Shown here: positions 7,868 to 42,299 of the stretch, in pieces
Position numbering within the stretch: position 1 is the first letter of the stretch
Layout of the letters: each line of letters opens with the position of its first letter
Source: Coriobacteriales bacterium
GTDB lineage: Bacteria > Actinomycetota > Coriobacteriia > Coriobacteriales > UMGS124
Assembly: GCA_017515595.1 (NCBI GenBank)
Contig: JAFWFL010000048.1
Span: 1 to 43,601, forward strand
Direction of reading: 5' to 3'
DNA: 43,601 bases
The notes under the pieces: generated by a model
Databases searched by the model: none
Seen by the model: the letters and a program-made list of their open reading frames with translations, nothing else
Told to the model about the DNA's origin: nothing
Program-made: the position numbers and the translations under genes

Positions 7868-9242
7868 GACTAAAAAGCCCGGATTGGTACCCAAGACATT
7901 GATACCCGTTTTCATTAATAACAGGAATTACTTCATTACCGATTTGTAATTGCTTACGTACCCAGTAGCATATACTCGTTGTCATACCAATAGAGTCAGT
8001 ATACTCTTTCATTTTCTCAATGTTCTCAAGAGAAAGCGCGCGGTCAGGCGCTGTCCTGCCACGTTGCTTTTTATGGTCAGCATTGGAAGGCATAATGTAG
8101 TCTTCGTATAATGCTTTCTCCATCTGTTTGTCAAAATAACCGAGCCACTGGCCAAGCATCGCCAAGTTCTCCATACAGGCCGTCAGAAATTCAGGCTTGT
8201 AATTAATGATTCCGTGAGCATGCAAATTATCAAAAAACTCTTTGATATGCTCCTGAGTCAGATACGGAGTAAAAATGGGCTGGACCAGGGCAGAATCAGA
8301 CAGTATGCCGTTTTCCCGGCAAGCGTCAACAGCTTTAAGCCTGTCTTCAATAGGCGCGGCATAAGGCTCCAAAATATTACGATACTCAGACGGCATAATA
8401 GAAACACTAACGTTGTACTGCATTTTGTCTTTGAGCTCTTTAAAGAGATCGAGCAAAGATTCGCCCTCATATTGAGCCATCAAGTGACGGATACCTGCTT
8501 TTGAGGCAATAAAGAGACGGGCGTTAGAATCAGGATACTCTTTAAAATGTTCAATGAATTCCCTGAGGATTCTGTGTGCCAGTCCTGTAACCAAAGTAGG
8601 CTCCTGTAATGCCTCCGTCTTTGGCGAGAAATAATAATAATGATTCCAGTTTTTACCTTTGCTTAATTCTGTGATTTTGCGTTCGATTTCCAGCTTTTTC
8701 TCCGGTGCAGATTCTATTGCACGGGCAAGCTCAGCTAAAAGACGATTCTTTTCTTGCAAATCCTCTTTTGTGACGTTGGCTGTGGGAGTACCGTTCATTT
8801 CTTTTAAGAGTTTACGCACATACAGGTGATAATTATCAAGTATCTTGATTTCCTGCTCATGTACGCCGTCAGTAACCAGGCAGTACTGGCAGCCAACATT
8901 ACAACCAACCACCGGGTTTATCTCAAATGTCAAGGTAGGACAGCGACCGGTATAATTATGTATGGTCGTGTCATATGTCTCATAATCAACTTCTGTAAGA
9001 ACTGCACGGGAGATGGGGATAACGGTCTTCTTTTGATACCTGTTTAAAAAAATGCGCGACCCCTCCGTAAGCTTTGACAATGTTTCAGGAGAAGGCAGAG
9101 TTTGTACACCGAGATTCGATAGATAAGCCTCGTCAATAATCTGCGGAGTAAAACCCGGCAAAGAATAAACGTCCTGTTCATGAGAATACAAATTTGAATA
9201 GGTAATCACTCTGTTCACTGCGTCTGTCCCTTCATTTGGCAT
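7860..9242 (-). CDS. Radical SAM protein, spore-photoproduct-lyase-like subgroup
   Basis: 460 aa. The [4Fe-4S] cluster motif is CNVGCQYC (Cys114, Cys118, Cys121; CX3CX2C), set in TFEINPVVGCNVGCQYCLV, the arrangement seen in SPL-related radical SAM proteins. A charged insert (about residues 130-205) separates the cluster strand from the rest of the barrel, which contains YYYFSPKTEAL, ARLFIASKAG and NVSVSIMPSEY. Radical SAM enzymes use reduced iron-sulfur and S-adenosylmethionine to make a 5'-deoxyadenosyl radical; the substrate here is unknown. Spore DNA repair is unlikely, since nothing else suggests a spore former. Start ATG 9242 has AGAGGTG about 11 nt upstream. The downstream ATP-grasp-like gene overlaps its end, suggesting a two-enzyme pathway. 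No precursor-peptide-like ORF was found upstream. Confidence 0.8.
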   Translation of the reverse strand: MPNEGTDAVNRVITYSNLYSHEQDVYSLPGFTPQIIDEAYLSNLGVQTLPSPETLSKLTEGSRIFLNRYQKKTVIPISRAVLTEVDYETYDTTIHNYTGRCPTLTFEINPVVGCNVGCQYCLVTDGVHEQEIKILDNYHLYVRKLLKEMNGTPTANVTKEDLQEKNRLLAELARAIESAPEKKLEIERKITELSKGKNWNHYYYFSPKTEALQEPTLVTGLAHRILREFIEHFKEYPDSNARLFIASKAGIRHLMAQYEGESLLDLFKELKDKMQYNVSVSIMPSEYRNILEPYAAPIEDRLKAVDACRENGILSDSALVQPIFTPYLTQEHIKEFFDNLHAHGIINYKPEFLTACMENLAMLGQWLGYFDKQMEKALYEDYIMPSNADHKKQRGRTAPDRALSLENIEKMKEYTDSIGMTTSICYWVRKQLQIGNEVIPVINENGYQCLGYQSGLFSHE

Positions 9243-10540: not shown

Positions 10541-10594
10541 TGATCACTATTGGGTCTTAAAAAACACAGCTCAAACCTACGAAAGAGACCGGAC

Positions 10595-12463
10595 GTGCCT
10601 GTTAATGCCATTGACATACATGATGAACTCCTCCTGGGGCGTTATCGCGTTCTTGAAGAACGTGGTCACGGCGGGTTTGGCACGGTCTTTATCTGCTGGG
10701 ATCCAAGGCTTATGCGGCGTGTTGCCATCAAATCTATCAGACTTGATCAATCAGCAAATCAAGGCCCCAAAAAACGCGCCAATAAAGGACAACCCAACCC
10801 ATTGCAAAATGCAGACGAGGCTGAGCGTCGCGAGCGCCTGCTCCATGCCGCTCTTGCCGAGACGCGCACCGCAAGCATGCTCTCCCACCCAAATATTGTG
10901 CAGATGCTCGACTTTGAAAACGACGCCGAGTATGCCTATATCATCATGGAATATGTTGAGGGTACAAGTCTTGCCCACCTTCTCGAAGCAGATGAGAACG
11001 GCATGCTAAATGCTGATGAGGCTGCCGCTGTTGTTGAGGCAGTTTGCGATGCTCTCCAGTTTGCCCATGAAAACGGCGTACTCCACCTGGATATTAAGCC
11101 TGACAACATTCTCATCGAAGCCTCGGGCCGTGTAAAACTTGCAGACTTTGGCATGGCTGCTTTGAGTTCAGCCACAGGATACTCCGGAGCTCGCGGCGGT
11201 ACAGTTGGTTACATGCCCCCCGAGCAGATTGAAGGCGGAGACGTAGATGTACGCACCGACATCTTTGCGTTTGCCTGCGTCATGTACGAAGCGCTTACCG
11301 GCGTGCGTCCTTTTAACGCTCCTACCATACAGCAATCGCTGGAGCTCGTGAACGCAGGAGCCGCCGACCCATGCGCTTTGAATGACAGCATTCATGAGGT
11401 TACGGCAGACGCTCTGCTTGTTGCCCTTGACCCTGATCCTGACATGCGCCCGTCGAGCGCTCAGGGTTTGGGCGAAGAATTGTTACGCGGACTTGGTAAA
11501 CCAAAAGCAGGCAGACGTAGTCTTGCAAACTTTGTCAGCGAGATTCGCGATGATTCAGAGCCTGCACAAGAACCCAGTCAGGCTTATTCACAAAAACTTG
11601 AGCCCCAGCCCTGGAGCGAAACGGGGCCTTTGGGCCAGCTTTCTCCTCGCGGAATACTCTGTGTCTTGCGCATTATTGCGGGTATCAGCGCCGGCTGCCT
11701 TGCAGGGTTTTGCATGATGTGTATAGGCGGAGCTCAGATTGCCGCCGCTCTTGCCGCCGGCATTGTAGTAGGAGCACTCGGTATCGCAGCGCCTCATTTG
11801 GGCAGCGCATTAGCGCTCATTAGCCTCATAGCGGCATGTATAACAACTTTAGCCTGGCCTCTTGCTTTGGTTGTAACGCCGGTAAGTATCTTGTGGTGGA
11901 TTTTTATTGGACGATATTTCCCCATTTCGAGCGCTTTTACCTTAACTCCCATATGTATACCTCAGTTTGCGACCCCCTTCCCCGCTCTTGCAGGCGGGCT
12001 TTTACTGACACCGGCAAGGATTGCGGTAAGCTCAGCCTTGGGTTGTATAGTTTGCCTTACCCTTTGTGCACTTTCTGCTTCACCAACATATGGGGTTATA
12101 GCCCTTGAGCAGTTAGGAAATGTCTCGGCTCACGAAATTGGCGTTGCTACGCGCCTGCTCGTTAGCTCAGGTTCAACCTGGACTTCAATGCTTGGGTTTG
12201 TTGCAGCCGGAACTGTCTTGTCAGTTTTTGCCACCAACGGAGGATCGGTGAGATGCTACATTGGAGCACTGGCCGCGCTGATTGTTCTTCTGGTTGCACA
12301 CGTACTATGCACACTCATGGAAAATGACGGTACTTGGCCAATACTTTTTCCGGAATCCTTAGTACACGTGATTTTCTCGATTATACTAGTATGTCTTATG
12401 ATTTTCTTTATTGGTACCCCACGCGCACTGGCTATTGAGCGCGCGACAACCGAGTATGTTTAG
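10595..12463 (+). CDS. Ser/Thr protein kinase with polytopic C-terminal membrane domain
   Basis: 622 aa. An N-terminal Hanks-type kinase domain shows the Gly loop GHGGFGTV, the ATP lysine in VAIK, HLDIKPDN in the catalytic loop, LADFG and the PPE of the activation-segment end. The Arg of HRD is Leu (HLD), making it a non-RD kinase. A Lys/Asn/Gln-rich insert of about 30 residues sits between VAIK and helix C. From about residue 350 the protein has roughly eight to ten hydrophobic segments instead of PASTA domains. Start: GTG 10595 with a modest AAAGAG upstream, or TTG 10550 (15 residues more) without a ribosome site. It takes the place of a PknA-like second kinase at the head of the signalling/cell-wall operon. 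It probably phosphorylates Thr on proteins read by the FHA proteins downstream; the membrane domain may sense a lipid or be a transporter remnant. Confidence 0.85.
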   Translation: MPVNAIDIHDELLLGRYRVLEERGHGGFGTVFICWDPRLMRRVAIKSIRLDQSANQGPKKRANKGQPNPLQNADEAERRERLLHAALAETRTASMLSHPNIVQMLDFENDAEYAYIIMEYVEGTSLAHLLEADENGMLNADEAAAVVEAVCDALQFAHENGVLHLDIKPDNILIEASGRVKLADFGMAALSSATGYSGARGGTVGYMPPEQIEGGDVDVRTDIFAFACVMYEALTGVRPFNAPTIQQSLELVNAGAADPCALNDSIHEVTADALLVALDPDPDMRPSSAQGLGEELLRGLGKPKAGRRSLANFVSEIRDDSEPAQEPSQAYSQKLEPQPWSETGPLGQLSPRGILCVLRIIAGISAGCLAGFCMMCIGGAQIAAALAAGIVVGALGIAAPHLGSALALISLIAACITTLAWPLALVVTPVSILWWIFIGRYFPISSAFTLTPICIPQFATPFPALAGGLLLTPARIAVSSALGCIVCLTLCALSASPTYGVIALEQLGNVSAHEIGVATRLLVSSGSTWTSMLGFVAAGTVLSVFATNGGSVRCYIGALAALIVLLVAHVLCTLMENDGTWPILFPESLVHVIFSIILVCLMIFFIGTPRALAIERATTEYV

Positions 12464-12490: not shown

Positions 12491-13465
12491 ATGAACCTGG
12501 TCGATATACTTGAAAACCGTATGACCGAACTCTTTGAAGGCAAGCGCCTAAAAACGCCATTCCCTTTTAAGAAACTTGCAAAGCAGGCTACACGTGAAAT
12601 GAAGCGCAACGCCCAACAGACCGGTGACGCCGCAATCGCTCCTTCACTTTATACCATTCTCATCAACCCCACTGATGATGCGGTAATCGCCCCTATTTAC
12701 CAGCAAGTTACTGATGAACTTGTAGACTTTTTAACTCACGAAGCAAGAAACGCCGGCCTCACTGTTGCGGTTTCGCCCATGGTCCGCTTTATTGCCGACG
12801 GCAATGTGCGTCAGGGCAAGCTCGAGGTTATTGCCGAGGTAGTTGAATCCGAGATACTCGAAGAAGTACGTCTGGAAGAAGCTAAGTATACCGAGGCACA
12901 TATGCGTGCCGCCGGCTCAGCTCCGGTTCCTCGGCAACAAAAGAGCCAGGTTGCAATGCCTGACCAGCGTCAGAGCGCAAGACCCGCATCTCCGCAACCG
13001 TCTGCTCAGCAACAGGTTGTGCCCCAAGTTCCGCAACAAAACAAACCGTCCGTGCAACAAAACGCTCCGTCAGGTTTTACTGCGGGCGAGGCGCCGGTAC
13101 AGGTTCCTATCACTACGTCCGGTATGCCTGCTCAACCTCAAAAACCGGTTCAAACACCTGACCAACCAGAAAACTATGTTTGCGAATTTGTAGATACCAC
13201 AAATCCAAATCGTGTTCTGCGCATTACCAAAGACGTTGCAGTCATTGGTCGTGAGAGCACAATGGCAGATATTGTCTTGCAGGATACCAATGTAAGCCGC
13301 AGACATGCTGAAGTTACTCATGATCTAACCGGTTGGCATATCCGCGACCTGGGCAGCACTAACGGCACTCGTGTTAACGGCTCGCGTGTTCAGGGCATCT
13401 ATGACCTGAGAAGCGGCGATATTGTACAGTGTGGTCTCATTAAGCTTGCGTTTAGAGAGCTGTAA
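12491..13465 (+). CDS. fhaA: FhaA-type protein: DUF3662 domain plus FHA domain
   Basis: 324 aa. The N-terminal 120 residues (start MNLVDILENRMTELFEG, later FKKLAKQATREMKR) are the DUF3662 domain of actinobacterial FhaA. A Pro/Gln-rich linker covers about 145-230. The C-terminal FHA domain (about 240-324) has the phospho-Thr-binding set GRESTMADIVL, SRRHAEV and DLGSTNGTRVNG. In mycobacteria FhaA binds phosphorylated partners at sites of cell-wall synthesis, including the pseudokinase linked to MurJ. ATG 12491 has GAGGTG 4 nt upstream. It follows the polytopic kinase by 27 bp and precedes fhaB by 2 bp, so the three are clearly one transcript. Confidence 0.92.
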   Translation: MNLVDILENRMTELFEGKRLKTPFPFKKLAKQATREMKRNAQQTGDAAIAPSLYTILINPTDDAVIAPIYQQVTDELVDFLTHEARNAGLTVAVSPMVRFIADGNVRQGKLEVIAEVVESEILEEVRLEEAKYTEAHMRAAGSAPVPRQQKSQVAMPDQRQSARPASPQPSAQQQVVPQVPQQNKPSVQQNAPSGFTAGEAPVQVPITTSGMPAQPQKPVQTPDQPENYVCEFVDTTNPNRVLRITKDVAVIGRESTMADIVLQDTNVSRRHAEVTHDLTGWHIRDLGSTNGTRVNGSRVQGIYDLRSGDIVQCGLIKLAFREL

Positions 13466-13467
13466 TC

Positions 13468-13881
13468 ATGCCTGCTGTGGTATTGTTTATTGGACGCATT
13501 TTTTTAGTAGTGGCTTTGTTTGTTTTTTTGTTTGCCATTATGAAAACCGGCGTTGGCCTTGTAAAAGGTCAGCGCAGCGTTGCAGCCGTTTGGTGCATTG
13601 ACATTATTGATGGGTCTGACCAGGTAAAAGGCATACACGTTGATATAATGGGGCCGGTTGTCGTGGGCCGCTCTCCGGGAGCAGATATAATGCTGCCCGG
13701 TGTGTATGTAAGCGGCAAACACGCACGTTTTGCACCGCAGGGACCGGCGCTTGTGGTTGAAGATCTTAATTCACGCAACGGCACTATCGCAAACGGCCGC
13801 ACCATTTTGGGTCCCACCGTTCTCCATGACGGCGACCTTGTACAAGTAGGCGACACGGTAATGAGAGTGACCAGACAATGA
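13468..13881 (+). CDS. fhaB: FhaB-type membrane-anchored FHA protein
   Basis: 137 aa. One N-terminal membrane helix (about 4-26) and a short linker lead to a single FHA domain with VVGRSPGADIML (65-76), SGKHARF (82-88) and DLNSRNGT (99-106). The Ser, Arg and Asn that contact phospho-Thr are present. FhaB (FipA in mycobacteria) links kinase signalling to FtsZ/FtsQ and septal or apical growth. The stop overlaps the phosphatase start as ATGA (13878-13881), so the two are translationally coupled. Confidence 0.92.
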   Translation: MPAVVLFIGRIFLVVALFVFLFAIMKTGVGLVKGQRSVAAVWCIDIIDGSDQVKGIHVDIMGPVVVGRSPGADIMLPGVYVSGKHARFAPQGPALVVEDLNSRNGTIANGRTILGPTVLHDGDLVQVGDTVMRVTRQ

Positions 13882-15788
13882 GTGAATACGGGGTGTCCGA
13901 GAACACCGGTTCCGCACAACCCAATATCGACAACAGTACAGATACCTCATCTTCTGTCCTCAACACTCAGGCGTCTTCTGACGAGCTCGAAGCCCTTGCA
14001 GAGAGCTATATTGCCACAATTGACGCACAGGACACAATCCAACCCCCAATACAGGACCAGATGAGTGTTTCTCAGTCTGATGCAGCTGTTCTTCCCGCCA
14101 GCGAACAACCGTTATCTCCGGCATCGGAACAACTCGATGAAGATGCCCAAATGGCTGTTGCGGCACTCTCCAATGATGATTCAGCTCAAGAAGTGCGTGA
14201 TCCTGATCCTCAGACATTGACAGCCGGCGGCGAGCCCCTGTCAAACAACAGCCCTTCTCAAGAAATTCCGCTGTCCTCACAGCTCGAACCTCAGCCAGAA
14301 AATTTTGGCGGAGATCCGGCAGGAGAAGCGAATGTTTCTCAGCAGAGCAACAGTGTGCTTCCCAACGACATTACCGAAATTTTTACTGCAATCCCGGCAA
14401 ATGTTTTGCCTTCTGACGGATACCAGGGGACTGTCCTTTTAGATAGCACTGCTTCACAAGCAGGCCAGGTAACCTCTCTTGGTTCTTCTTATACAGATAC
14501 AACACAGCAAAGTGATGCCAAACAATCTGACGTTGACCAAATTGAGCAGGCCGCTCTCGAACACGAAAACCTCAATCCTGCAACTACTCTGCCGTTTTCT
14601 CCTGCAGAACTGTTAAAAGAAACACAGAGGGCTCCTGCCGAGCGTGTCAGCGGCGCTGCGAGAGGAACCGGCTCGCTCGCATGGGGTTCCCGAAGCGATA
14701 TTGGCTGTATACGTTCACACAATGAAGATTCGTTTTTAATCAGGTTTCCTCTGTTTGCCGTTGCCGACGGTATGGGCGGACACGAAGCCGGCGAGATAGC
14801 AAGTACCATTGCTGTTTCGACGCTTGCTACAACCGCTCCCGCATCTCCTGACCACGAATCATTGGGAAAAGCGCTTGAGAGTGCAAACGAAGCTATTATT
14901 CAGGCTGCCGGCTGTGGTCTTGGCAAACCGGGAATGGGAACCACCTGCACCGCTGCTGTTATTGACGGAGATCGCATGGCCATTGCCCATGTTGGAGACT
15001 CACGTTGTTATTTGCTCCACGCAGGCCAGCTTGTACGCATTACACATGACCACTCGTTTGTAGAAGAGCTTGTTGCCGCCGGCCAGATTACACCTGAAGA
15101 AGCCCGGGTACATCCTAATCGCTCAGTCATAACAAGAGCTTTGGGCAGTGATCCCGCAATGCGTGCAGACAGCTTTACTATTAACGTTGTACGCGGCGAC
15201 CGCATTCTCTTATGCACTGACGGACTCAATTCCATGGTTCCTGACGCTCTTATAGAAGAATCAATGGTTTCTACCCCCACGCCTCAGTCTTGCGCCGACA
15301 GCCTTGTAGAGCTTGCGCTTTCCCGCGGAGGTTATGATAATATCAGCTGTATTGTTATTGATATTAAAGATGACGGCACGCTCGCCCGTGCAATGCGTCT
15401 GCGCATACGCAATATTCTTCTTGGTCTCTGCGCCTTGGCCGGAGTCCTTCTCGCCATTCTTTTGGGTGTCTATGGTTATGCACAACACACCTGGTATTTA
15501 GCAGATTCCAACGGATATGTAACCCTTAACCGAGGCTTACCCGGCGATTGGGGTATTTTGCCGTTTAACGAGGTCATTGAAGTCACCGAAATCGAGAGTT
15601 CCAAGCTTTCCGGTGCGGTTGAGGCACGCCTTACTCAAGGTATCATGTTTGGTAGTGAAGAAGAAGCCCGGAAAGTTATTGGAAGCTACCGTAATCTTAT
15701 ATTGGCAGATGAGCAGGCAAAAGCTGCAGAATCAGAAAAGATTTCTTCTGCACGAGCTGCTGCCTCAGCCGGCGAAGCGGGTGCATAA
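13878..15788 (+). CDS. pstP: PP2C-family Ser/Thr phosphatase (PstP) with long N-terminal extension
   Basis: 636 aa against roughly 510 for mycobacterial PstP. Residues 1-265 are acidic, low-complexity and rich in Ser, Gln, Pro and Thr, with no fold recognisable. The PP2C domain (about 266-500) has RSHNEDSFL, VADGMGGHEAG (295-305), GTTCTAAV, HVGDSRCYLL, LLCTDGLNSM and GGYDNIS, supplying the metal-binding aspartates. A single membrane helix (about 514-536) is followed by an external tail of about 100 residues. It reverses kinase phosphorylation in the same operon. The start overlaps fhaB by 4 bp and the end is 2 bp before the RodA-PbpA gene. The cytoplasmic extension, absent from classic PstP, may be a kinase substrate or docking region. 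Confidence 0.92.
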   Translation: MSEYGVSENTGSAQPNIDNSTDTSSSVLNTQASSDELEALAESYIATIDAQDTIQPPIQDQMSVSQSDAAVLPASEQPLSPASEQLDEDAQMAVAALSNDDSAQEVRDPDPQTLTAGGEPLSNNSPSQEIPLSSQLEPQPENFGGDPAGEANVSQQSNSVLPNDITEIFTAIPANVLPSDGYQGTVLLDSTASQAGQVTSLGSSYTDTTQQSDAKQSDVDQIEQAALEHENLNPATTLPFSPAELLKETQRAPAERVSGAARGTGSLAWGSRSDIGCIRSHNEDSFLIRFPLFAVADGMGGHEAGEIASTIAVSTLATTAPASPDHESLGKALESANEAIIQAAGCGLGKPGMGTTCTAAVIDGDRMAIAHVGDSRCYLLHAGQLVRITHDHSFVEELVAAGQITPEEARVHPNRSVITRALGSDPAMRADSFTINVVRGDRILLCTDGLNSMVPDALIEESMVSTPTPQSCADSLVELALSRGGYDNISCIVIDIKDDGTLARAMRLRIRNILLGLCALAGVLLAILLGVYGYAQHTWYLADSNGYVTLNRGLPGDWGILPFNEVIEVTEIESSKLSGAVEARLTQGIMFGSEEEARKVIGSYRNLILADEQAKAAESEKISSARAAASAGEAGA

Positions 15789-15790
15789 GC

Positions 15791-18565
15791 ATGGGTACCC
15801 GTCGCAACACAGAATTCTTATTGCTGATAGTGGGCAGCATACCGGTATTCTTACTGTATGCCATGTATGTAATAAGCCAGGGTGCAGAACTTAATGCCAC
15901 TACGCTCATTGTCCCTATAGGACTTACCCTTGCGTTTGCATCTGCTCATATAGCAATTCGTATTCTTGCTCCAAAGGCTGATCCGGCAGTTTTGCCTATT
16001 GTATTTGTACTCTCGGGTATTGGCATTACTTTTGTGACACGCCTGGCACCTGAAGCAGCTACCAGGCAGGTTATATGGCTCTTTGTTTCGATTACAGCCA
16101 TGATAGTTACTCTTGCGCTCGTACGCAATGTTGATAAGCTTGCCCGTTATAAATATACCATTGGTTTAGTAGGCCTTATTCTTCTGCTCTTGCCAATATT
16201 CTTTGGTTTTGAACGCAACGGTTCAAAACTCTGGATAGGCGTCCCTGATGTTTTAAGCTTCCAGCCGGGAGAAATCTCCAAAGTCCTCATCACCATTTTC
16301 TTGGCAGCATTTCTCTCAGAAAACCGCGAGCTCATGAGTATCAGCAATCATAATATTGGGCCGTTGCGCATCCCCAGGCTTCGTATGCTTCTGCCCTTGT
16401 TTATGATGTGGCTTATTTCTCTCGTAATTGTTATATGGGAACGTGACCTTGGCAGCGCCGCTCTCTTCTTTGTTATCTTTGTCATCATGCTTTATGTAGC
16501 CACGGGACGATGGTTCTATACCATCATTGCCTGCTTGCTACTTATTGCCGGCACCATGCTTGCTTATAATGCCTTTGGCCATGTGCGCACCCGCATTGCG
16601 ATTTGGCTGGACCCCTTTGCCGATCCCTCTAACTCCGGCCTTCAGATTGTCCAATCCCTCTATTCTTTAGCCGACGGAGATTTGCTGGGCATGGGCATTG
16701 GTAAAGGTATGTGCGATTTTATTCCGTTAGTATCGAGCGACTTCATTTTTGCCGCAATTGCCGAGGAAACCGGCTTTTTGGGCGGAAGCGCCGTTATATT
16801 GCTGTTTATGCTCTTTGCTGTACGCGGATTCTTAACTGCAGCCCGTGCCAAGAGCGATATGGCCGGTTTTATGGCAGTAGGTCTCACCTCTTCTATAAGC
16901 TTCCAGGCATTCCTCATTATTGGCGGAGTTACCAGGCTGATTCCCCTTACGGGCGTTACGCTTCCCTTTATGAGTCAGGGCGGCAGCTCGCTTTTAGCAA
17001 GTTTTATCATTGTGGGTCTTATTTTGCGCTGCGGTGACGAAGCAACGGGCACTCAGGTAGAAATGCTTGGCAGCGGAGTTTCTGACCGTACAACGCTTGG
17101 GTATAAGCTCGAAACCCCTGAGAGCGGTGTTTTGGGCCGTCTTGCCTTCTCAAAGAGACTGACAGTGGTTACTGCGGGGTTTGCTCTGCTTTTTGCTGTG
17201 CTCATTGGAAACCTTGCCTGGTATCAAGTTGTTCAGGCAAACACTATCAGAAGTATGCCTTCAAACAGCCACACACTCACAAGACAAGCCATTGTAGAGC
17301 GCGGGAGCATTCTTACATCTGACGGCATTGTGCTGGCAGAAAGTCTGCAGCAAACCGATAATACATATACCCGCAGCTACCCGCAAGGCCAGCTGGCTTC
17401 TCATACGATAGGATATGTGGATACAAGATACGGAACCACCGGTATAGAAAAAACTTATGACAATGTTCTAAGCGGAGGCAATGACTATACCACCTGGACC
17501 GGGACCTTCAATGCACTCGTAGGCACAGTAACGCCCGGTAAGGATGTTGTGCTCACTATTGATTCGCGTATCCAGGCAGCCGCTGAAGCCGCCTTGGTTG
17601 GACAGGTTGGCGGTATTGTGGTTCTCAACCCATCTACCGGTGCAATTCTCGCAAAAGCTTCTTCGCCCAGCTATTCTTACAGTGAACTCGAAGAACTGCT
17701 GGCCAGCGATTCAACGCAGGGTGAGCTTTTTGACCGTACCACTCAGGCACTTTATGCTCCGGGTTCAACCTTTAAAACGGTAACATTGGCCGCGGCTTTA
17801 GATTCCGGCCTTGTGAATATTGACTCTGTGTATGCCGCGCCTGCGGTGCTTGAGATTGGCGGAGGAACAGTAAGCAACTACGACGCTACAGACTATGGCG
17901 AGCTTACTCTTCATGACGCTTTTGTCTACTCAAGCAACACGGTCTTTGCCCAGGTTGCAGTTGATCTTGGCGCTCAGGCACTTATAAGCGAAGCGGCCTC
18001 GTTTGGTTACGGCAGAGTACTTGGCATTGGAGTCCCCATAAAGGCTTCGCTTATGCCTGATCCTGCCGAGATGACCAACTGGGAAACCGCTTGGGCAGGT
18101 GCAGGGCAACCGGTTGGCTCTCATATAAGTCCTTCGGGACCGCAGACAACCGTTTTACAAAATGCCATGATTGCCGCTGCCATTGCGAACGACGGTATTC
18201 TCATGGAGCCTTACATAGTGAAGAGCATCACCACTTCGAACGGAACCGTTGTCTCCGAGACCACTCCCCACTCTCTTGGGAGCGCCTGTTCACGAGCTAC
18301 GGCAGCAATTATCGGCGAAGCCATGCTCGACACGGTAAACGAGGGCACCGGTACTGCCGCAAGTATTGTAGGCGTTAATGTTGCAGGTAAAACCGGCACA
18401 GCCGAAACCAGCAACGACAACCCCAATGCTTGGTTTATTGGATTCGCGCCTTACGAATCACCCGCGGTAGCCGTAGCAGTCGTGATAGAAAACGATGCGG
18501 AACATACCGCCACCGGCATTGCCGGGAACATAATGCAAACCGCGCTTGAAGTCTTGGGAAGGTGA
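15791..18565 (+). CDS. RodA/FtsW glycosyltransferase fused to PbpA-type transpeptidase
   Basis: 924 aa carrying two enzymes that are usually adjacent genes. The N-terminal part (about 1-420) is a SEDS polymerase with about ten to twelve membrane helices. It shows the signature stretches VIWERDLGSAALFF and FMSQGGSSLL and polymerises lipid II. After a short linker and one further hydrophobic segment (about 456-477), the C-terminal part is a class B penicillin-binding protein. Its catalytic S659-TFK662 lies in APGSTFKTV, S714-S-N716 in YSSNTVF, and K867-TG869 in AGKTGTAE, all intact. The frame is continuous with no stop or slippery site. It follows pstP by 2 bp. Fusion fixes the polymerase and cross-linking activities in 1:1 ratio. 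Confidence 0.93.
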   Translation: MGTRRNTEFLLLIVGSIPVFLLYAMYVISQGAELNATTLIVPIGLTLAFASAHIAIRILAPKADPAVLPIVFVLSGIGITFVTRLAPEAATRQVIWLFVSITAMIVTLALVRNVDKLARYKYTIGLVGLILLLLPIFFGFERNGSKLWIGVPDVLSFQPGEISKVLITIFLAAFLSENRELMSISNHNIGPLRIPRLRMLLPLFMMWLISLVIVIWERDLGSAALFFVIFVIMLYVATGRWFYTIIACLLLIAGTMLAYNAFGHVRTRIAIWLDPFADPSNSGLQIVQSLYSLADGDLLGMGIGKGMCDFIPLVSSDFIFAAIAEETGFLGGSAVILLFMLFAVRGFLTAARAKSDMAGFMAVGLTSSISFQAFLIIGGVTRLIPLTGVTLPFMSQGGSSLLASFIIVGLILRCGDEATGTQVEMLGSGVSDRTTLGYKLETPESGVLGRLAFSKRLTVVTAGFALLFAVLIGNLAWYQVVQANTIRSMPSNSHTLTRQAIVERGSILTSDGIVLAESLQQTDNTYTRSYPQGQLASHTIGYVDTRYGTTGIEKTYDNVLSGGNDYTTWTGTFNALVGTVTPGKDVVLTIDSRIQAAAEAALVGQVGGIVVLNPSTGAILAKASSPSYSYSELEELLASDSTQGELFDRTTQALYAPGSTFKTVTLAAALDSGLVNIDSVYAAPAVLEIGGGTVSNYDATDYGELTLHDAFVYSSNTVFAQVAVDLGAQALISEAASFGYGRVLGIGVPIKASLMPDPAEMTNWETAWAGAGQPVGSHISPSGPQTTVLQNAMIAAAIANDGILMEPYIVKSITTSNGTVVSETTPHSLGSACSRATAAIIGEAMLDTVNEGTGTAASIVGVNVAGKTGTAETSNDNPNAWFIGFAPYESPAVAVAVVIENDAEHTATGIAGNIMQTALEVLGR

Positions 18566-18659
18566 TGGATCCCTTGTATATCACACATCAACGCGCCACT
18601 CAGCACGTCAACCATATGTCTAACATACAAGCCGCTCATTCAGCAGATTGGAGAACATC

Positions 18660-21029
18660 ATGGCCACAGTAGATCAGGGAACGGTATTCGGAGGCCGTTA
18701 TGTTGTTCAGTCTCAGGTTGGCACCGGTGGCATGGCTACCGTTTACAGAGGTGTCGACTCGGTTTTGAACCGTACGGTCGCCATCAAGGTCATGCTGCCG
18801 CAATATGCAACCGATCCCGCCTTTGCAGCTCGATTTAAGCAGGAGGCTCAGGCTGCTGCCGCGTTGCAAAGTCCCTATATTGTAGCTGTTTACGACTGGG
18901 GCCGCGACGACGCTACCGGCACCTACTATATTGTTATGGAATACCTGCGCGGTACCGACCTCAAAACAGGTATTCGCAGCCATGGAGCTTTGCCACCGCG
19001 CAAAGTTGCCCAAATTGGAGCACAGGTTTGCTCGGCACTGGCAGTAGCGCATGCCCATGACATTATCCACCGTGATATCAAACCTCAAAACATTATGATC
19101 CAGCCAAACGGCAACGCAAAGGTCATGGACTTTGGCATTGCCCGTGCCGGCAATTCACATCTTACTCAAACAAATTCTGTACTCGGCACAGCGCATTATG
19201 TCTCGCCCGAGCAGGCTCAGGGCAAGGATTTAGGGCCCACTTCAGACCTGTACTCACTTGGTGTTGTTATGTATGAAGCCGCAACCGGACAGCTCCCCTT
19301 TGATGGCGAAGATGCGGTATCGGTTGCTCTCAAACAGGTAAGCGATGAGCCCGCTTTGCCAAGCAGTTTGAATCCAAACATCGACACGGTTTTGGAAAGC
19401 ATCATTTTGCGCCTCATGTCCAAAAATCCTGCCAACAGATTCCAAACCGCAGATGAGCTGCGTCGTGTTCTCAACGACTACATCATGGGCCGCCCTGTTA
19501 AGACTCCGGTAGTTACCAGCGTCTTAGGTGCCGGTACTACCATGAGGCAAACAGTCCGCACACAAGCTATGCCTAATTCTCAGGTAAACATTGGCGGCAC
19601 CATCACAAGCACCAGCGGCGAAATCAGCTCATCCGGTGCACGTATGATTCGCGAGCCGTTTAAAACAAGCCGTGCAAATCCCGGAACATCATCTAACAAC
19701 CGGGCCCAGCAACGCTCTCAAACTCAATCCGAGAAGCCCAACCACACCGCTTTGATTGTCACTGCTGTTACCGTTGGTGTTATCGCTCTTGTCGCCATGA
19801 TTATTATCTGGGTATCGAGCTGCAGCACTCCGTCAACCCCCGCCGGTAACAACGGGAACCAAAACAAACCGACACCAAGCCAAACCTCGGGCGAAGTCTC
19901 TATGCCCAACCTTATTAACCAGACACAAAGTGATGCCACGAGCATTCTCAACAGCAACGGTCTTAATATTGGGCATATTTCGACAGCACCAAGCGACATT
20001 ATTGCCGAGGGCAAAGTGGTTTCTCAAACCCCTGAAGCCAACCAGCAAATAGTTGCAGGATCATACGTTGACCTTGTTATCAGCAGCGGTACAGATAAAG
20101 TTGCTGTGCCTTCGCTTCTTGGTAAAACCGAGGCAGAGGCAGCAACGCTTGCAAACCAAGCCGGAATCAAAGTAACACGTGACTACGCTCTCGACGCTTA
20201 CAGCAGCGATTACCCAGAAAACACCATTGCTTACTATCAACCTGCAAATCAAACCGTAACTAAAGGTACAACCGTCCGTTACGGTCTCAGCAAAGGTGTA
20301 GATCCGGCAACGCTCAAGGTTGTGGTACCCGGTGTTGTAGGCTGGTATTACGGTGATGCTCAATACACAATTGAACTTCTTGAGCTCCAAACTTATATAG
20401 CATGGGAGCACAGCGAAACCATGCCTGACAATTGTGTCATACGTCTTGAGCCTGATGAAGGTACCGAGCTTTCAAAGCATGAGGTCGTGACTATTTATGT
20501 AAGTTCCGGTCCTGCTCCCTATACGCTTCCTGATTATGCTGCAGATAATTGGAGCTGGCAGGCAGCACAAAATGACTTGCTCTACAACCATCCGGGATTA
20601 CAGCTCAACGTCACCGTTGACACATCTCAAATTCCGCCTACTCCGGAACAAGCAGGCAAGGTTACCTCGGTTTACCCTGTTCCGGGAACAGAAATTTCGC
20701 GCGGAGCAACCGTAACCTTAACCGCATACGGCGATTATCCGCATAGCATAGTACCCAATGTCAACGGCAGGAGCTTAAACGAGGCATATTCAATTATGAC
20801 AAACGAGGGCTTCTCGGCAGTTGCGCTTGACACCGACGGCAATCCTATTGCGTCATATGACGGTTATACCGTAGCATACACAGACCCAAGCGGCGATTCT
20901 TCGCAACCCGTAGGCTCAACCATATACATTTATGCAACGCCCCCGGCTCCGGAACCTGAAAACAGCTCCGATTCTGAAGAATTACCTATTCAAAACACCG
21001 AGTCTGGTTCACAGGAACCTGAGACATAA
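18660..21029 (+). CDS. pknB: PASTA-domain Ser/Thr protein kinase, PknB type
   Basis: 789 aa. The kinase domain (about 13-275) has GTGGMATV, K43, HRDIKPQN (137-144), DFG (157-159) and an activation loop with T169 and T171 before GTAHYVSPE, matching the autophosphorylated pair of mycobacterial PknB. A Ser/Thr-rich juxtamembrane linker (276-360) and one membrane helix (about 364-387) come next. Five PASTA-like repeats (about 412-745), more diverged towards the end, give way to an acidic tail. PASTA domains bind muropeptides or lipid II outside the cell, so the protein reports cell-wall status to the cytoplasm. ATG 18660 is chosen over TTG 18648 because GGAG stands 6 nt before it. It is the last gene of the operon, after a 94-bp gap. 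Confidence 0.95.
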   Translation: MATVDQGTVFGGRYVVQSQVGTGGMATVYRGVDSVLNRTVAIKVMLPQYATDPAFAARFKQEAQAAAALQSPYIVAVYDWGRDDATGTYYIVMEYLRGTDLKTGIRSHGALPPRKVAQIGAQVCSALAVAHAHDIIHRDIKPQNIMIQPNGNAKVMDFGIARAGNSHLTQTNSVLGTAHYVSPEQAQGKDLGPTSDLYSLGVVMYEAATGQLPFDGEDAVSVALKQVSDEPALPSSLNPNIDTVLESIILRLMSKNPANRFQTADELRRVLNDYIMGRPVKTPVVTSVLGAGTTMRQTVRTQAMPNSQVNIGGTITSTSGEISSSGARMIREPFKTSRANPGTSSNNRAQQRSQTQSEKPNHTALIVTAVTVGVIALVAMIIIWVSSCSTPSTPAGNNGNQNKPTPSQTSGEVSMPNLINQTQSDATSILNSNGLNIGHISTAPSDIIAEGKVVSQTPEANQQIVAGSYVDLVISSGTDKVAVPSLLGKTEAEAATLANQAGIKVTRDYALDAYSSDYPENTIAYYQPANQTVTKGTTVRYGLSKGVDPATLKVVVPGVVGWYYGDAQYTIELLELQTYIAWEHSETMPDNCVIRLEPDEGTELSKHEVVTIYVSSGPAPYTLPDYAADNWSWQAAQNDLLYNHPGLQLNVTVDTSQIPPTPEQAGKVTSVYPVPGTEISRGATVTLTAYGDYPHSIVPNVNGRSLNEAYSIMTNEGFSAVALDTDGNPIASYDGYTVAYTDPSGDSSQPVGSTIYIYATPPAPEPENSSDSEELPIQNTESGSQEPET

Positions 21030-29991: not shown

Positions 29992-31407
29992 TTACCCATT
30001 TTTTGTCATAAGCGTTTCTTGATCATTTTTAAATACACCTCTGGTAGGTGTCAGCAAAAGAATCTGGATATCGAGCAATATAGACCAGTTATTAATGTAG
30101 TAAAGGTCGTATTGCACACGTTCTTCTATAGAGGTATCTCCCCTGAGTCCGTTAATTTGCGCAAGACCGGTCATGCCGGGTCGCACTTGATGACGAACCA
30201 TATACAAAGGTACACTTGTCTTAAAACGTTCAACATACTCCGGGATTTCAGGTCGCGGTCCTACCAAACTCATATCTCCCCTAAGTACATTAAAGAGTTG
30301 TGGGAGCTCATCAATTGAGAATCTGCGCATAAAAGCGCCAAAGCGTGTGCGACGCGGGTCACCTGTGGTTGTCCAACCGGTACTCTCACCGGAGTCAACA
30401 CGCATCGATCTAAATTTGTACATTTTAAAGATTTCCCTGCCACGCCCTACACGAATCTGAGAAAAGATTACGGGTCCGGGCGAAGAGATCTTTGTTCCGA
30501 TCGCAGCAATCAGCATGATAGGCGATGTAAAAACAATAAGAAGAATTGAGCCCACAATATCAAATGTACGCTTCACAAAGCTGTAACCAAGATTATCAAT
30601 TACCACATGGTTCACATTAATAAGCGGAATTCCGCCTTCAATACCAATATGAGGCCTGTTCGAAAGATACTGGTAGTACAAGGGCAAAATTGATACTTTG
30701 CAACCACTTTTTTCGCATACAAAGAGAATGTCTTCGAGCAAAAGATGCTCACTCGACTCAAGCGCTACAATTACCTCATCAGGATTGAGTGTATCAAGCA
30801 CAACGTCAATATCAGCATAACTGCCCAAATATAAAAGATTGCCGCTAATGGCGCGAACTCCAATATTACCGAGAACCTTATATGGGCTTGCTTCTTCGCT
30901 CGTAACACCGGTATAATACGCGTAAGCCAAAGGGCCTGCACCAATAAGAACAACGCGCCTTTGTTCCAAGCCGTTTCTGTGCAAGCTCCTTAAATAATGA
31001 CTAAAAACAATAACCTTTAAACAACTCAATAAAGTAGCAGAAACCCAGAAGATAACAATAAGCCAACGGGACATTCGGTTAATATTAAAAACAAAAATAC
31101 AAACAATGAATAACGAAACAGAAAGTGTTGTTGCAGCAATAGAGCGTCCAAGCAAACGGTTAAGGTCAACGCTCGATGACTTAAAATCATTGGCTCCAAA
31201 TAATCCATACAAAAATATAAAAACGGGAGAAATTGCCAGCGCCCATAAAAGGTGATATGTTAAGTCACCAACCGGATCATCGCCTTCGAGCACCGTAAAG
31301 CGAATCCAGTATGCGATTGCCATCGATACAACAACAATGACTACATCAAGCAAGCTCGAGAAAGTATTAAATCTCCGGCGTTTTTGAGAAGCCATATGTG
31401 ATGCCAT
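29992..31407 (-). CDS. Polyprenyl-phosphate sugar-1-phosphate transferase (CpsE/WcaJ-like)
   Basis: 471 aa. Four or five N-terminal membrane helices are followed by a CoA-binding-like Rossmann region ([16 protein letters not shown]) and a further hydrophobic segment. The bacterial sugar-transferase domain lies in the last 200 residues: [49 protein letters not shown] and MSLVGPRPE, all standard for PglC/WbaP-like enzymes. It starts a repeat unit by moving sugar-1-phosphate from a nucleotide sugar to undecaprenyl phosphate. ATG 31407 has GAGGT upstream at 7 nt. It is divergent from the DUF4012 protein, and no full polysaccharide cluster is next to it. Confidence 0.93.
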
Positions 31408-31615: not shown

Positions 31616-34240
31616 ATGGTCCCGCGTTCTACTTTTGACCGGCTTCCTGATGACAAGCGTTTTACTAATAGTCAAGATAACGGAGAAAATATCTTTGTTT
31701 TTAATCTCTCAGAAGACAAAGCTGCCCCTAACGGCACCGGGACTTCAACGGATGCTTTTACAAGAGTCCTCAGTACTCAGGAAGAACAAGTCGCGCAACC
31801 TCAGCCTGTAACAGAAGGCAACCCATACATATTTTATGTGCCTGCTTATATGCCTGCACAATCCATGCCAAGCGCATCATATCCTCAAACGTCTTATCCT
31901 CAAGATTCTGCTCAAAGTACCGGATGGTATGCACAAAGCTCCATTCAGGACTCCGGGACTTTCATGCAAAACCCTGCTCAAGATACCGGGGCTTATATGC
32001 AAAATCCGGTTCAGGACACCGGCGCTTTTATGCAAAATCCCACTCAGGACACCGGAGCTTTCATGCAAAATCCCACTCAAGCAACTGGGACTTATATGCA
32101 AAATCCGGTTCAGGACACCGGGGCTTTTATGCAGAATGCTGCCCAGAATTCTGGGTGGAATTCACAAGATACTTCACAAAATACCGGATGGTATGGGCAG
32201 GGTCCGTCTTTGGATACCGGCTGGTATACACCAAATCCTCTTCAGGATACCGGTTCTTTTATGCAAAGTTCCGCTCAAAATACCGGCTGGCAACCCCAAA
32301 GTCCCAATCAGAATACCGGAGCCATTTTGAGTATTGCCGCACAAAATACCGGAGAGTATAGAGCAGCAACCGCTGGTCAAAAAACCGGAACATATACAAA
32401 AGCTTCTGAACAGAATACTGTGCAAAGTCCGCTTTCAAGCCCGGATGCTAATTCCTCAGATAAAACAGGTGTTACAGGAGAGTCCAAAAAGAAAAAGCGT
32501 CATATTGGTCTCATAGTTTTCCTGCTTCTTGTTGTGGTGTTTTTGGCACTTTGCGGAGGCATTGCTTTTGCCGGATACAATTTTTACCAATCAGTTGAGA
32601 GAATCCAAAATGAAGCCGCTCCTCTCTCAACTACCGCAAATGACTTTGTTGAAGCCGTCATTAGCGGAAACACCGAGAAAATGCAAACAACGTCAAACCA
32701 AATCATAAGTTCGCTTTCAAATATCAAATCAGAAGTTGATACCCCTCTATGGGAATTGGCGGAAAAACTCCCTGCATACGGCTCTGATGTAAAAGCAGCC
32801 CGTGAACTTGTTAACTTTGCAGATAATGTAGTCCAGGGAATTCTTGTTCCCACTCTCCCAACGCTCATTAATTATCCGCGTCAGAGTCTCTATGCAAACG
32901 GTAACATTAACGGACCTGCGCTGCAGTCATACTGTGACATCTTTGTCCAACTGGGACCGGCTGTTGCCCAAGCCGCACGTAAAGCCGGCAGTTTACCGCA
33001 TTCGGATCATTTTGACCAAATCAATACCATTGTTGACCAGATTCAAGAGCCGCTCAATATAGCGAGCAGTCTCCTTAATGACAACTCAGCGTTAGTTCGC
33101 GAACTACCTTATATCTTAGGTTGCTACGGCGAGCGGCATTATCTTGTTGTCGCAATGAATAACTGCGAAATCAAATCCTTGGGAGGTTTTGCCGGTGCAT
33201 TCATTCCCGTTACGGTTACAAACGGCCATGTATCAATAGGCAGCGTTATATCACGCGAGTCTTTTGATGAATATGGTATATACTATGATTTTAGCTATGC
33301 CAAAGAAGCTCTCTTTAACGACCGGTTAGGTAATGTCGCCGGGGATGTCACAATTATTCCTGATTTCCCACGTGCCTGTTATGTGTGGAACGAAATGTTC
33401 GCAGCTAATTTTGGCATTACCTACGACGGCATTATAGCGCTTGACCCGTTTGTACTCCAATACATTGTTGGCGTCTTTGGTGATACACAAATACCCGACG
33501 GAGACATACTGACAGGTGACAACGCCGCGCGCATCCTGCTTCATGACACATATTATTATTGGCCTAACAACAATAATCTCCAAGACGAATACTTTGCCCT
33601 TGCAGCAGGCGCCGTTGTAAACAAAATCGTCTCCACCGGCATTAACAACATTGACTTCTCGAACCTCTTTGAAGCGCTCATGCGCGCAATAAATGAGCAT
33701 CGTTTAATCGTGTGGTTTGCCGACCCGGGCGAGGAAGAAATCTGCAGAACTCTCGGATGCTCCGGCGAACTGTATAATGACGTAAAAACCCCTGTATTGG
33801 GTGTCTATTTCAATGATGATTCATGGAGCAAAATCGACTGGTGGATTCATGAAGAAACTTCTATTGGAGAACCATGGGTCAACGAAAACGGTACTGCCAC
33901 ATATCCGGTCACAACTATTCTTAGTAATGATATGACTTGGAATGATGTTTATACCGCTCCTGAATATATGCTTGCACACTACGGTTATGTAAACAGCAGA
34001 GGCGATATGTCAACCATAATGTACCTGTTTGCTCCTATGGGCGGATACTTTACTGATCTCATTACCAGCTCCGGCAGTATGAGCTTAGCATATTACGGTG
34101 ATCATGAGGTACTTTGGAGCCTCTTCCGTCTGGGTCCCGGCGAACAGGTAGTACTAACCTACAACGTCACCGTTCCTGCCGAAGCTGAGGTCCCCCTCAC
34201 TACGCACATCACACCAACAGCAGAAACCGCCCGCCATTAA
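31616..34240 (+). CDS. DUF4012-type membrane protein with N-terminal 11-residue repeats
   Basis: 874 aa. Residues 1-99 are polar. Residues 100-264 are fifteen exact-length 11-residue repeats (consensus QDTGxFMQNPx). KKKKR (291-295) then precedes a single membrane helix (297-321), so by the positive-inside rule the repeats are cytoplasmic. The extracytoplasmic part (about 322-874) has an alpha-helical stalk and a core with NCEIKSLGGFAGAF, DFPRACYVWNEMFA and the late all-beta segment, matching DUF4012 proteins of actinobacteria and Gram-positives. These sit near surface-polysaccharide genes and have no proven activity; similarity to LCP folds has been suggested. ATG 31616 follows GAAAGG at 6 nt. 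Divergent from the sugar-transferase gene, which supports a role in surface glycan handling. Confidence 0.85.
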   Translation: MVPRSTFDRLPDDKRFTNSQDNGENIFVFNLSEDKAAPNGTGTSTDAFTRVLSTQEEQVAQPQPVTEGNPYIFYVPAYMPAQSMPSASYPQTSYPQDSAQSTGWYAQSSIQDSGTFMQNPAQDTGAYMQNPVQDTGAFMQNPTQDTGAFMQNPTQATGTYMQNPVQDTGAFMQNAAQNSGWNSQDTSQNTGWYGQGPSLDTGWYTPNPLQDTGSFMQSSAQNTGWQPQSPNQNTGAILSIAAQNTGEYRAATAGQKTGTYTKASEQNTVQSPLSSPDANSSDKTGVTGESKKKKRHIGLIVFLLLVVVFLALCGGIAFAGYNFYQSVERIQNEAAPLSTTANDFVEAVISGNTEKMQTTSNQIISSLSNIKSEVDTPLWELAEKLPAYGSDVKAARELVNFADNVVQGILVPTLPTLINYPRQSLYANGNINGPALQSYCDIFVQLGPAVAQAARKAGSLPHSDHFDQINTIVDQIQEPLNIASSLLNDNSALVRELPYILGCYGERHYLVVAMNNCEIKSLGGFAGAFIPVTVTNGHVSIGSVISRESFDEYGIYYDFSYAKEALFNDRLGNVAGDVTIIPDFPRACYVWNEMFAANFGITYDGIIALDPFVLQYIVGVFGDTQIPDGDILTGDNAARILLHDTYYYWPNNNNLQDEYFALAAGAVVNKIVSTGINNIDFSNLFEALMRAINEHRLIVWFADPGEEEICRTLGCSGELYNDVKTPVLGVYFNDDSWSKIDWWIHEETSIGEPWVNENGTATYPVTTILSNDMTWNDVYTAPEYMLAHYGYVNSRGDMSTIMYLFAPMGGYFTDLITSSGSMSLAYYGDHEVLWSLFRLGPGEQVVLTYNVTVPAEAEVPLTTHITPTAETARH
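31913..32407 (+). repeat. Fifteen in-frame tandem 33-bp repeats
   Basis: Starting at codon 100 of the DUF4012 protein, every 11 codons the pattern Q-(D/N)-(T/S)-G recurs fifteen times without a length change. Units two to seven (QDSGTFMQNPA to QDTGAFMQNAA) are nearly identical; the outer ones are diverged. Confidence 0.92.
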
Positions 34241-40625: not shown

Positions 40626-42299
40626 ATGACGGAGAGATATAACCGCCAATCAAACAACCAAAACTCATACAGCCAGGATTCATACAGCCAGTATTCCTGG
40701 GATGATGAGTTTGATGACAGGCCCAGCGCACAACGCCAGCCGCGAACAAGCCGCACAAGCACGTCAGCACGTTCGAGCACAGCTTCGCGTACAACTACAT
40801 CTTCTCGCACAAGGCAGCAAGCCAACGACACATCACAAAATACAACGCGAGGCACCCGTTCACGCAGCTCGTCAGCATATGCCAATACCGGCAGCGCCCC
40901 AAGCAACAAAAAGCGTTTGATTATTATCATTGCTTCAGTTATTGGCGCTATTGTTTTGATTGCGGCAATTGTTGTCGCGAGCTTTATGGGGAGCATTGGG
41001 TGCAGACTTAACGAGCAATATCGTAATGACCAGGAACTTCAAAATGTTCTGAATGAAAACCAGCAACGCGCTCAGCAAAACTACCAAGCCTCAGTACAAG
41101 ACCAAAAGAGCACCGAGCTTCAGAGTAACTGGTCTGATATGACACCGTTTTATATGCTTCTTGTTGGCGTCGACTCAAGCGATGACCGTATGTACGGCGA
41201 TGAAGGCTCAGAGATGGGATACGGTTCAGATGAAGGCAGCTATAGGACTGATACCATCATACTCGCGCGTATAGACCCTGGTAACAAAAAAGTTGCTCTG
41301 GTATCAATCCATCGTGACACTCTTTATCCCATCAACGGCAGAGAACAGAAAATCAACAATGCATATTCAATAGGCGGTATGGCCAAAACCATAGAAGTAA
41401 TCAGCGAATTTGCCGGTGTCCCCATTACACACTTTGCCCAGGTCAATATGGACGGATTTGCGGCAATTATTGACGCGCTCGGAGGCTTGGAAATCAATGT
41501 TCCGTTCGAGATTTATGATGATTGGACAGATGCCTACTTCCCGGCAGGCCCACAGATTTTGAACGGTCATGATGCAACTTACTATGTACGTATCCGCCAT
41601 GCTTATGACCAGATGGGTGACGGCGACCGTTACCGTGCAGCAGCACAACGACAGGTCCTCGAAGTGCTTTTGCAGCGCATTATGAGCGCTTCACCTGTAG
41701 AAATGGTCAATATCATTAATACACTCGCAGGCTACGCAAGCACTGACTTTACACTTGACCAGATTGTAAACCTCGCTTTGGCGATGCGCGGCATTGATAT
41801 TAATTCTGACGTATATTCAACCATGAACCCAACAATTGCAACTTACACAAATGATACCTGGTATGAGATTAGCGATACTGAAGCATGGAATCATATGATG
41901 GCAATGGTTGACGCCGGTCAGCGCCCCTCATCCGATACTGCGATTCAGTCCGGACTTGGCAGTGTTACCACCGGTGCACCGGGAACAGTGGAACTTCCCA
42001 CTCCGACTCAAGCCAACACCGATATTTATGTCAAAGACGCCTATGCCGGAGGTTTGGGTTCTGCCGAAGCCACTCAAGCCCTTGTCGAGAATGGATGGCG
42101 TGCCACTGATGCCGGAGTTGCCAATATTTCCCTTGATTATACCGTAGTGGTCTACCAAAACGACACGTATCTTGAACTGGCTGCTCAAATTGCCGAGATT
42201 GTGGGCGGATATACCGAGCCAAGACTCGATACCTGGGGAATCCCCGATGGCTATGGTATCATGGTTGTTATGGGAACAGATATTCCTTACGGTTACTAA
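40626..42299 (+). CDS. LytR-CpsA-Psr (LCP) family glycopolymer ligase with LytR_C domain
   Basis: 557 aa. A disordered cytoplasmic N-terminus (1-95) is rich in Ser, Thr, Arg and Gln, with a YSQDSYSQYS stretch. One membrane helix (about 98-120) is followed by the LCP domain: TDTIILARIDP, VSIHRDTLYPI, KINNAYSIGG and YYVRIRHAYDQMGDGDRYRAAAQRQ, which supply the conserved Arg and Asp residues that bind the lipid pyrophosphate. The C-terminal domain (about 460-557) is LytR_C. LCP enzymes attach undecaprenyl-linked polymers to peptidoglycan outside the cell. ATG 40626 is preferred since GAGGAG precedes it by 6 nt and the promoter lies just upstream; an ATG at 40500 lies before the promoter. Confidence 0.93.
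   Translation: MTERYNRQSNNQNSYSQDSYSQYSWDDEFDDRPSAQRQPRTSRTSTSARSSTASRTTTSSRTRQQANDTSQNTTRGTRSRSSSAYANTGSAPSNKKRLIIIIASVIGAIVLIAAIVVASFMGSIGCRLNEQYRNDQELQNVLNENQQRAQQNYQASVQDQKSTELQSNWSDMTPFYMLLVGVDSSDDRMYGDEGSEMGYGSDEGSYRTDTIILARIDPGNKKVALVSIHRDTLYPINGREQKINNAYSIGGMAKTIEVISEFAGVPITHFAQVNMDGFAAIIDALGGLEINVPFEIYDDWTDAYFPAGPQILNGHDATYYVRIRHAYDQMGDGDRYRAAAQRQVLEVLLQRIMSASPVEMVNIINTLAGYASTDFTLDQIVNLALAMRGIDINSDVYSTMNPTIATYTNDTWYEISDTEAWNHMMAMVDAGQRPSSDTAIQSGLGSVTTGAPGTVELPTPTQANTDIYVKDAYAGGLGSAEATQALVENGWRATDAGVANISLDYTVVVYQNDTYLELAAQIAEIVGGYTEPRLDTWGIPDGYGIMVVMGTDIPYGY

Follow-up and report, generated by a model that had tools for sequence, protein, structure and literature searches.

The N-terminal tail of a DUF4012 membrane protein encoded in the window, the 43,601-nucleotide stretch of DNA analysed here, carries an array of 11-residue tandem units (Table 1). 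Judged from its sequence, the array is genuine, constrained and uncommon in copy number. The array itself appears to be lineage-bound, but its core, a Thr with Phe or Tyr at +3, recurs in the tails of relatives, and by the counts given below the relatedness of the motif is statistically supported. We see an even chance that the array serves as an amplified, cytoplasmic, multivalent phospho-Thr acceptor, which would couple glycan attachment to a PknB/FHA circuit.

Table 1 Features of the window discussed in the text, with strand and basis of assignment.
Feature	Position	Strand	Basis
Ser/Thr kinase with C-terminal hydrophobic region, candidate writer	10550..12463	+	PF00069
FhaA-type FHA protein, candidate reader	12491..13465	+	PF00498, PF12401; FHA structures of GarA, TB39.8
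Second FHA protein, candidate reader	13468..13881	+	PF00498
PP2C phosphatase, candidate eraser	13878..15788	+	PF13672
PknB-type PASTA kinase, candidate writer	18648..21029	+	PF00069, PASTA; PknB 1mru E 8e-69
WcaJ-type undecaprenyl-phosphate glucose phosphotransferase, divergent neighbour	29992..31407	-	TIGR03023 above cut-off; PF02397
Membrane protein with DUF4012 (874 aa), running from N-terminal tail through TM helix to outer region	31616..34240	+	ORF, translation, Pfam
Pre-repeat segment STDAFTRVLS, aa 44-53	31745..31774	+	By-eye resemblance to single T-x-x-F in family f10 tails
Array of 14 units x 11 residues in exact register, aa 100-253	31913..32374	+	Consensus Q-D/N-T-G-A/W-F/Y-M-Q-N-P-x
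Degenerate units QKTGTY (aa 255) and QNTV (aa 266), beyond a 12-residue step	32378..32422	+	Sequence
KKKKR and TM helix, aa 291-319, end of inner tail	32486..32572	+	Hydropathy, charge
DUF4012 domain, within LCP-like predicted fold	33128..33553	+	Pfam; AF2 models, Foldseek

The DUF4012 domain (PF13196) occupies residues 505-646 of the protein (Pfam, E 1e-33, 117.3 bits against a gathering score of 28). The array units start at residues 100, 111 and so on up to 243, and the spacing is exactly 11 residues throughout (n = 14). At a lag of 11 the tail gives 87 identities, whereas 5000 shuffles average 20.9 and never exceed 39; further peaks at lags of 22 and 33 are harmonics of the 11-residue period. 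Position 3 of the unit is Thr or Ser (12 and 2 units, respectively) and position 4 is Gly in all 14 copies, and this T/S-G pair is the most constrained of the unit. Gln is found at position 1 in 13/14 units, Asp or Asn at position 2 in 12/14 (7 Asp, 5 Asn), and Phe or Tyr at position 6, which corresponds to T+3, in 11/14. The sequence-only reading had counted fifteen repeats without an indel and assigned Q-(D/N)-(T/S)-G to each. Fourteen stand in exact register and share the T/S-G pair, but the fifteenth starts only after a step of 12 residues, and neither the Gln nor the Asp/Asn is present in every unit. The core of the tail consists of 16% Gln, 9% Asn, 11% Gly and 12% Thr, with about 10% Phe, Tyr and Trp together, and is almost devoid of Lys, Arg and Glu.

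Hydropathy and charge place a TM helix at residues 299-319, preceded by the KKKKR stretch at residues 291-295. Across 57 sequences, which include a few copies of the window protein itself and some near-identical entries, the mean net charge is +4.9 in the 15 residues before the TM helix and +0.4 after it, and it is higher before the helix in 53/57. Because this charge distribution follows the positive-inside rule, the tail is predicted to lie inside and the DUF4012 domain outside, a prediction that is well supported. The cytoplasmic location that had been proposed for the repeats from KKKKR is thus borne out at the level of prediction, as the basic stretch ahead of the helix supports a cytoplasmic tail.

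The RNase PH encoded in the window is 72% identical to that of an uncultured Coriobacteriales MAG and 61-71% identical to those of Enorma and Collinsella; the window therefore belongs to Coriobacteriales, and its source is a gut-type actinobacterium. Within the order, 49/150 genomes sampled encode a relative of the DUF4012 protein at E<=0.001, and 140/397 do so at the stricter 1e-30; all 34 aligned relatives match PF13196. Their tails are about 20 to 260 residues long and mostly unalignable. The window protein matches the family, but a comparable tandem array is absent from all 128 other DUF4012 tails, including those of the two other genomes of its taxonomic family. A strict Q[DN]TGx[FY] search elsewhere in its own genome returned two more matches, both in apparently spurious frames, a GTDB protein-pattern search for close relatives returned none, and the genus of the source consists of one genome. 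The array appears to be lineage-specific, seen in this genome only.

Many ortholog tails start with a short His-Phe segment (MASHFA, MGKHFS, AGNHFK, GRHFK) that is not present in the window protein. A separate 333-residue open frame (genome G000, contig C62:2179-2541) has a TM helix and following stretch as in the DUF4012 protein, without the DUF4012 domain. Its short tail contains KHTQEFDEP, another T-x-x-F.

Ortholog tails contain sites such as PGETAMF, ASETGTF, PDTTEAF, PQDTMEF and PDETAAY, in which a Thr, mostly preceded by an acidic residue, is followed by an aromatic residue at +3. The array unit QDTGAF has the same layout. There are 6 instances of [DE]-T-x-x-[FY] in 34 non-redundant tails, where 0.72 would be expected (p=0.0003); spacings other than +3 are near chance, and [DE]S with F/Y at +3 has 0 cases. 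As the pattern was picked from these discovery tails, 80 more tails were taken as a held-out set, in which 61 clusters dissimilar to the discovery set contain 6 occurrences against 1.39 expected (p=0.002). The +1 spacing is raised in the held-out tails too (5 vs 1.4), partly through the same DTF sites. Most motif-bearing tails belong to one family, f10, in which the Thr and Phe/Tyr are kept and the flanks differ, and the occurrences are not fully independent. Without the acidic -1, an aromatic residue at T+3 shows only weak enrichment in the tails of orthologs (p=0.03). Most ortholog tails do not contain the motif, which counts against a phospho-acceptor role. Within the window, [DENQ]Txx[FYW] is found at 8 sites in the tail of the DUF4012 protein, compared to 6 in the 11,907 residues of other window proteins. 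Ahead of the array, the STDAFTRVLS segment looks by eye like the single motifs of f10-type tails (STEEFTRAY, TTAEFARMY), which suggests that the array grew out of a single, older motif.

The N-terminal phosphoswitch of GarA and OdhI (ETTSVFR) likewise has a Thr followed by Phe at +3, within an N-terminal extension that is flexible. Its Thr residues are phosphorylated in M. tuberculosis GarA (PMC4322841, PMC5448819); C. glutamicum, like M. tuberculosis, phosphorylates the switch and reads it through an FHA domain (PMC5448819, PMC4322841, PMC2784874). Among 30 GarA-like FHA orthologs of the order, which include some near-identical pairs, 27 carry Txx[FYW] (TEIFRM, TRVFRM, TQAFNL) at the phosphoswitch position, where GarA has ETTSVFR. 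The genome's own GarA-like protein (contig C47:19774-20151; best NCBIfam model OdhI, below cut-off) has DKTQSF. In 11/14 array units the residue at T+3 is Phe or Tyr, in line with the GarA-type switch, whose Thr has a hydrophobic or aromatic +3 residue and lies in a flexible segment at the N-terminus. While GarA combines a single site with its own FHA domain, the window protein is a membrane protein with 14 sites in tandem, and Pfam detects no FHA domain in its 874 residues. Any FHA domain would therefore have to act in trans. In several families of GarA-like FHA proteins (L162-L166, L171, L174), a zinc-ribbon-like CPRCGF is located directly before T-Q-x-F and replaces the short free N-terminus.

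The unit also resembles mapped phospho-Thr sites more widely. We transcribed 66 M. tuberculosis Thr sites from PMC4322841 and assessed them against an assumed background composition. Gly is found at +1 in 17/66 (p=1.6e-4), compared to 0/22 unmarked Thr, an acidic residue at -1 in 18/65, and one of ILVMF at +3 in 23/61 (p=0.03); FYW alone is not enriched at +3 in this list (5/61), the significant group being ILVMF. DTGAF combines all three features. Sites lost on PknA depletion are reported in another study to have an acid at -1 and a hydrophobic residue at +3 (PMC7164672). Near copies of DTGAF are found among the mapped sites in FhaA (LHtGQFR), AnsP1 (GHtGPF) and Rv2536 (AADtDVFS), and MmpS3 (SDQtGETD) has Q-T-G in common with the unit. 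A mapped phospho-Thr is also present in the LCP protein Rv0822c (PMC7831098), which is phosphorylated at DDQQDtEAI. The phosphorylated tails of the mycobacterial envelope proteins MmpS3, Rv2536, Rv0822c and AnsP1 have single or few sites and, unlike the window protein, no tandem array. A matrix built from the mycobacterial sites gives 13 repeat Thr a median rank of 66 among 809 in the window; the five units with Trp at +2, a context missing from the mycobacterial list, rank low or in the middle. We found no phosphoproteome or phosphorylation data for Coriobacteriales or this organism.

As a phospho-Thr acceptor, the array would be phosphorylated at several repeat Thr by a PknB-type kinase, bound at these residues by FHA proteins and reset by the PP2C phosphatase. 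The many copies could provide avidity or a graded response, and the glycan-attaching protein would be clustered or gated at sites of wall building. Rv1747, an ABC transporter of M. tuberculosis, has phospho-Thr sites in a disordered linker on the cytoplasmic side of the membrane, and multivalent pThr-FHA contacts promote its condensates and membrane clusters (review PMC9312465). The window protein has several Thr sites that are predicted to lie inside, in a tail whose disorder is suggested by composition only. Rv1747, however, has its own FHA domains and a linker that is not a tandem repeat, while the window protein would depend on FHA in trans. For kinase control of surface-glycan steps of this kind, S. 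aureus PknB, which phosphorylates CapM and CapB1 (PMC6441080), and the phosphorylated LCP protein Rv0822c are published precedents.

The two kinases, the phosphatase and the two FHA proteins pointed out from the sequence are all present in the window, the phosphatase being of the PP2C type according to Pfam, and a third FHA protein is encoded on another contig of the genome. Their co-occurrence with the repeats, which had been used to argue for a phospho-switch, is a weak argument, as the linkage is not conserved: in relatives, about 33 kb to >300 kb separate PASTA-kinase candidates from the DUF4012 gene, or the two lie on separate contigs. We therefore do not use the proximity of the kinase genes as evidence. 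The phospho-switch, first offered as a guess, is nevertheless better supported than before, because the motif recurs and not because kinases adjoin; what favours it is a Thr context like that of actinobacterial phospho-Thr sites, the T-x-x-F/Y of ortholog tails and the GarA-like position. The kinase cluster also contains a 924-residue ORF (15791-18565, + strand) that appears by eye to join an FtsW/RodA-type membrane protein to a penicillin-binding transpeptidase.

A further proposal, which we make tentatively and at less than an even chance, is that of a bacterial tandem-repeat phosphodomain. Some relatives have one or two copies of a GarA-type phospho-Thr motif, and on the inner tail of an LCP-like, glycan-attaching protein this motif would have been amplified to 14 in-register units, a multivalent FHA platform through which the PknB circuit would be tied to the attachment of surface glycan. 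In eukaryotes, RNA polymerase II has a repeat tail of similar logic. If true, the PknB/FHA circuit would be linked to the poorly studied DUF4012 family, and roles would be suggested for both halves of the protein, the LCP-like outer domain and the phospho-read tail. The natural 14-copy array would allow a test of how the number of phospho-Thr motifs governs the way a bacterial membrane protein clusters or gains avidity, and the T-x-x-F/Y pattern could be used to predict from sequence which proteins are kinase targets in Coriobacteriales.

It is unlikely that the tail instead works independently of phosphorylation, as stickers and spacers in which the aromatic residues drive self-association and cluster the protein in the membrane. 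Such a tail would have no need for the invariant T/S-G, the pair under the tightest constraint, and would not predict the Thr at -3 of the aromatic residue in ortholog tails or the GarA-like switch, even though an aromatic residue recurs with regular spacing about every 11 residues in a chain rich in Gln, Asn, Gly, Ser and Thr and poor in Lys, Arg and Glu.

The DNA of the units bears on their age. The Gly codons at position 4 vary (GGA 5, GGG 5, GGC 3, GGT 1). Computed on 16 units as if in register, with the last two shifted, positions 1, 3 and 4 have a pN of 0.21-0.26, and values elsewhere in the unit rise to 0.63. The mean DNA identity is 0.77 for units 2-7, compared to 0.56 for the other eight; the central block contains a 99-bp higher-order repeat of three units, and silent sites are strongly diverged between units outside it. 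The repeats look to be under protein-level constraint and are more than fresh DNA copies. The recent expansion that had been read from the central units applies to this block, but does not extend to the remaining units. A neutral or length-tuning spacer, in which a short repeat happened to expand in a freely varying tail of this lineage, would account for the identity of the central units and for ortholog tails so variable in length and sequence, none of them with an array. We consider it quite improbable in view of the low pN at three positions, the diverged silent sites and 14 units in exact register.

The outer part of the protein was modelled with confidence by AF2 (outer region pLDDT 88, core pLDDT 89), and the best PDB matches of both models in Foldseek are LytR-CpsA-Psr (LCP) structures. 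The search with the core gave 20 matches at E<=0.001, all LCP structures, not all of them named so in their records; the best E is 2.9e-5, and TM values of 0.31-0.50 are borderline. A viral fold library gave no match at E<=0.001. The inner tail, single TM helix and outer domain are a layout common to the window protein and the LytR-CpsA-Psr transferases, which differ from it in sequence: hhalign against 25 LCP domains gave a probability of 0.3, Pfam reports DUF4012 only, with no PF03816 match, and a PDB sequence search with the whole protein returned no match. Sequence-level homology to LCP was rejected on the negative hhalign result. Because sequence profiles give no support, we describe the outer domain as a predicted LCP-like fold and do not claim membership in LCP.

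A DUF4012 gene is located within 10.5 kb of a PF02397 (polyprenyl glycosylphosphotransferase) gene in 6/28 genomes, that of the window included, where about 0.4 are expected. The membrane protein probably attaches surface sugars. The part in surface-glycan assembly first suggested for it gains from the predicted fold and this recurrent proximity. That the array docks a partner reading the unphosphorylated peptide, such as a component of the glycan-assembly machinery, is hardly probable, since the context matches mapped phospho-Thr sites and Ser never replaces Thr in the ortholog motif, although any peptide-binding partner would fit a conserved short motif and the nearby glycosylphosphotransferase genes would suit one of this kind.

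In LCP proteins of the order (L177-L200, L281-L340), 28/67 clusters of cytoplasmic tails contain a conserved juxtamembrane [FY]SR-x(4-7)-Y motif, with about 1 expected; it is also present in 4/95 DUF4012 tails, with 0.6 expected. To our knowledge, this motif has not been described. As it confounds the +3 test, LCP tails are not counted as support for the Thr motif, and DTGx[FY], with 3 cases in 24 first-set tails but 0 in 45 held-out clusters, was rejected as a motif of LCP tails in general. On the - strand of the window (6662-9242), a radical-SAM-like ORF (NCBIfam below cut-off) overlaps one of 417 residues that matches no NCBIfam model. The window's own LCP protein has a small tandem repeat in its tail (40665-40696), with a 15 bp unit of the S-Y-S-Q-D type.
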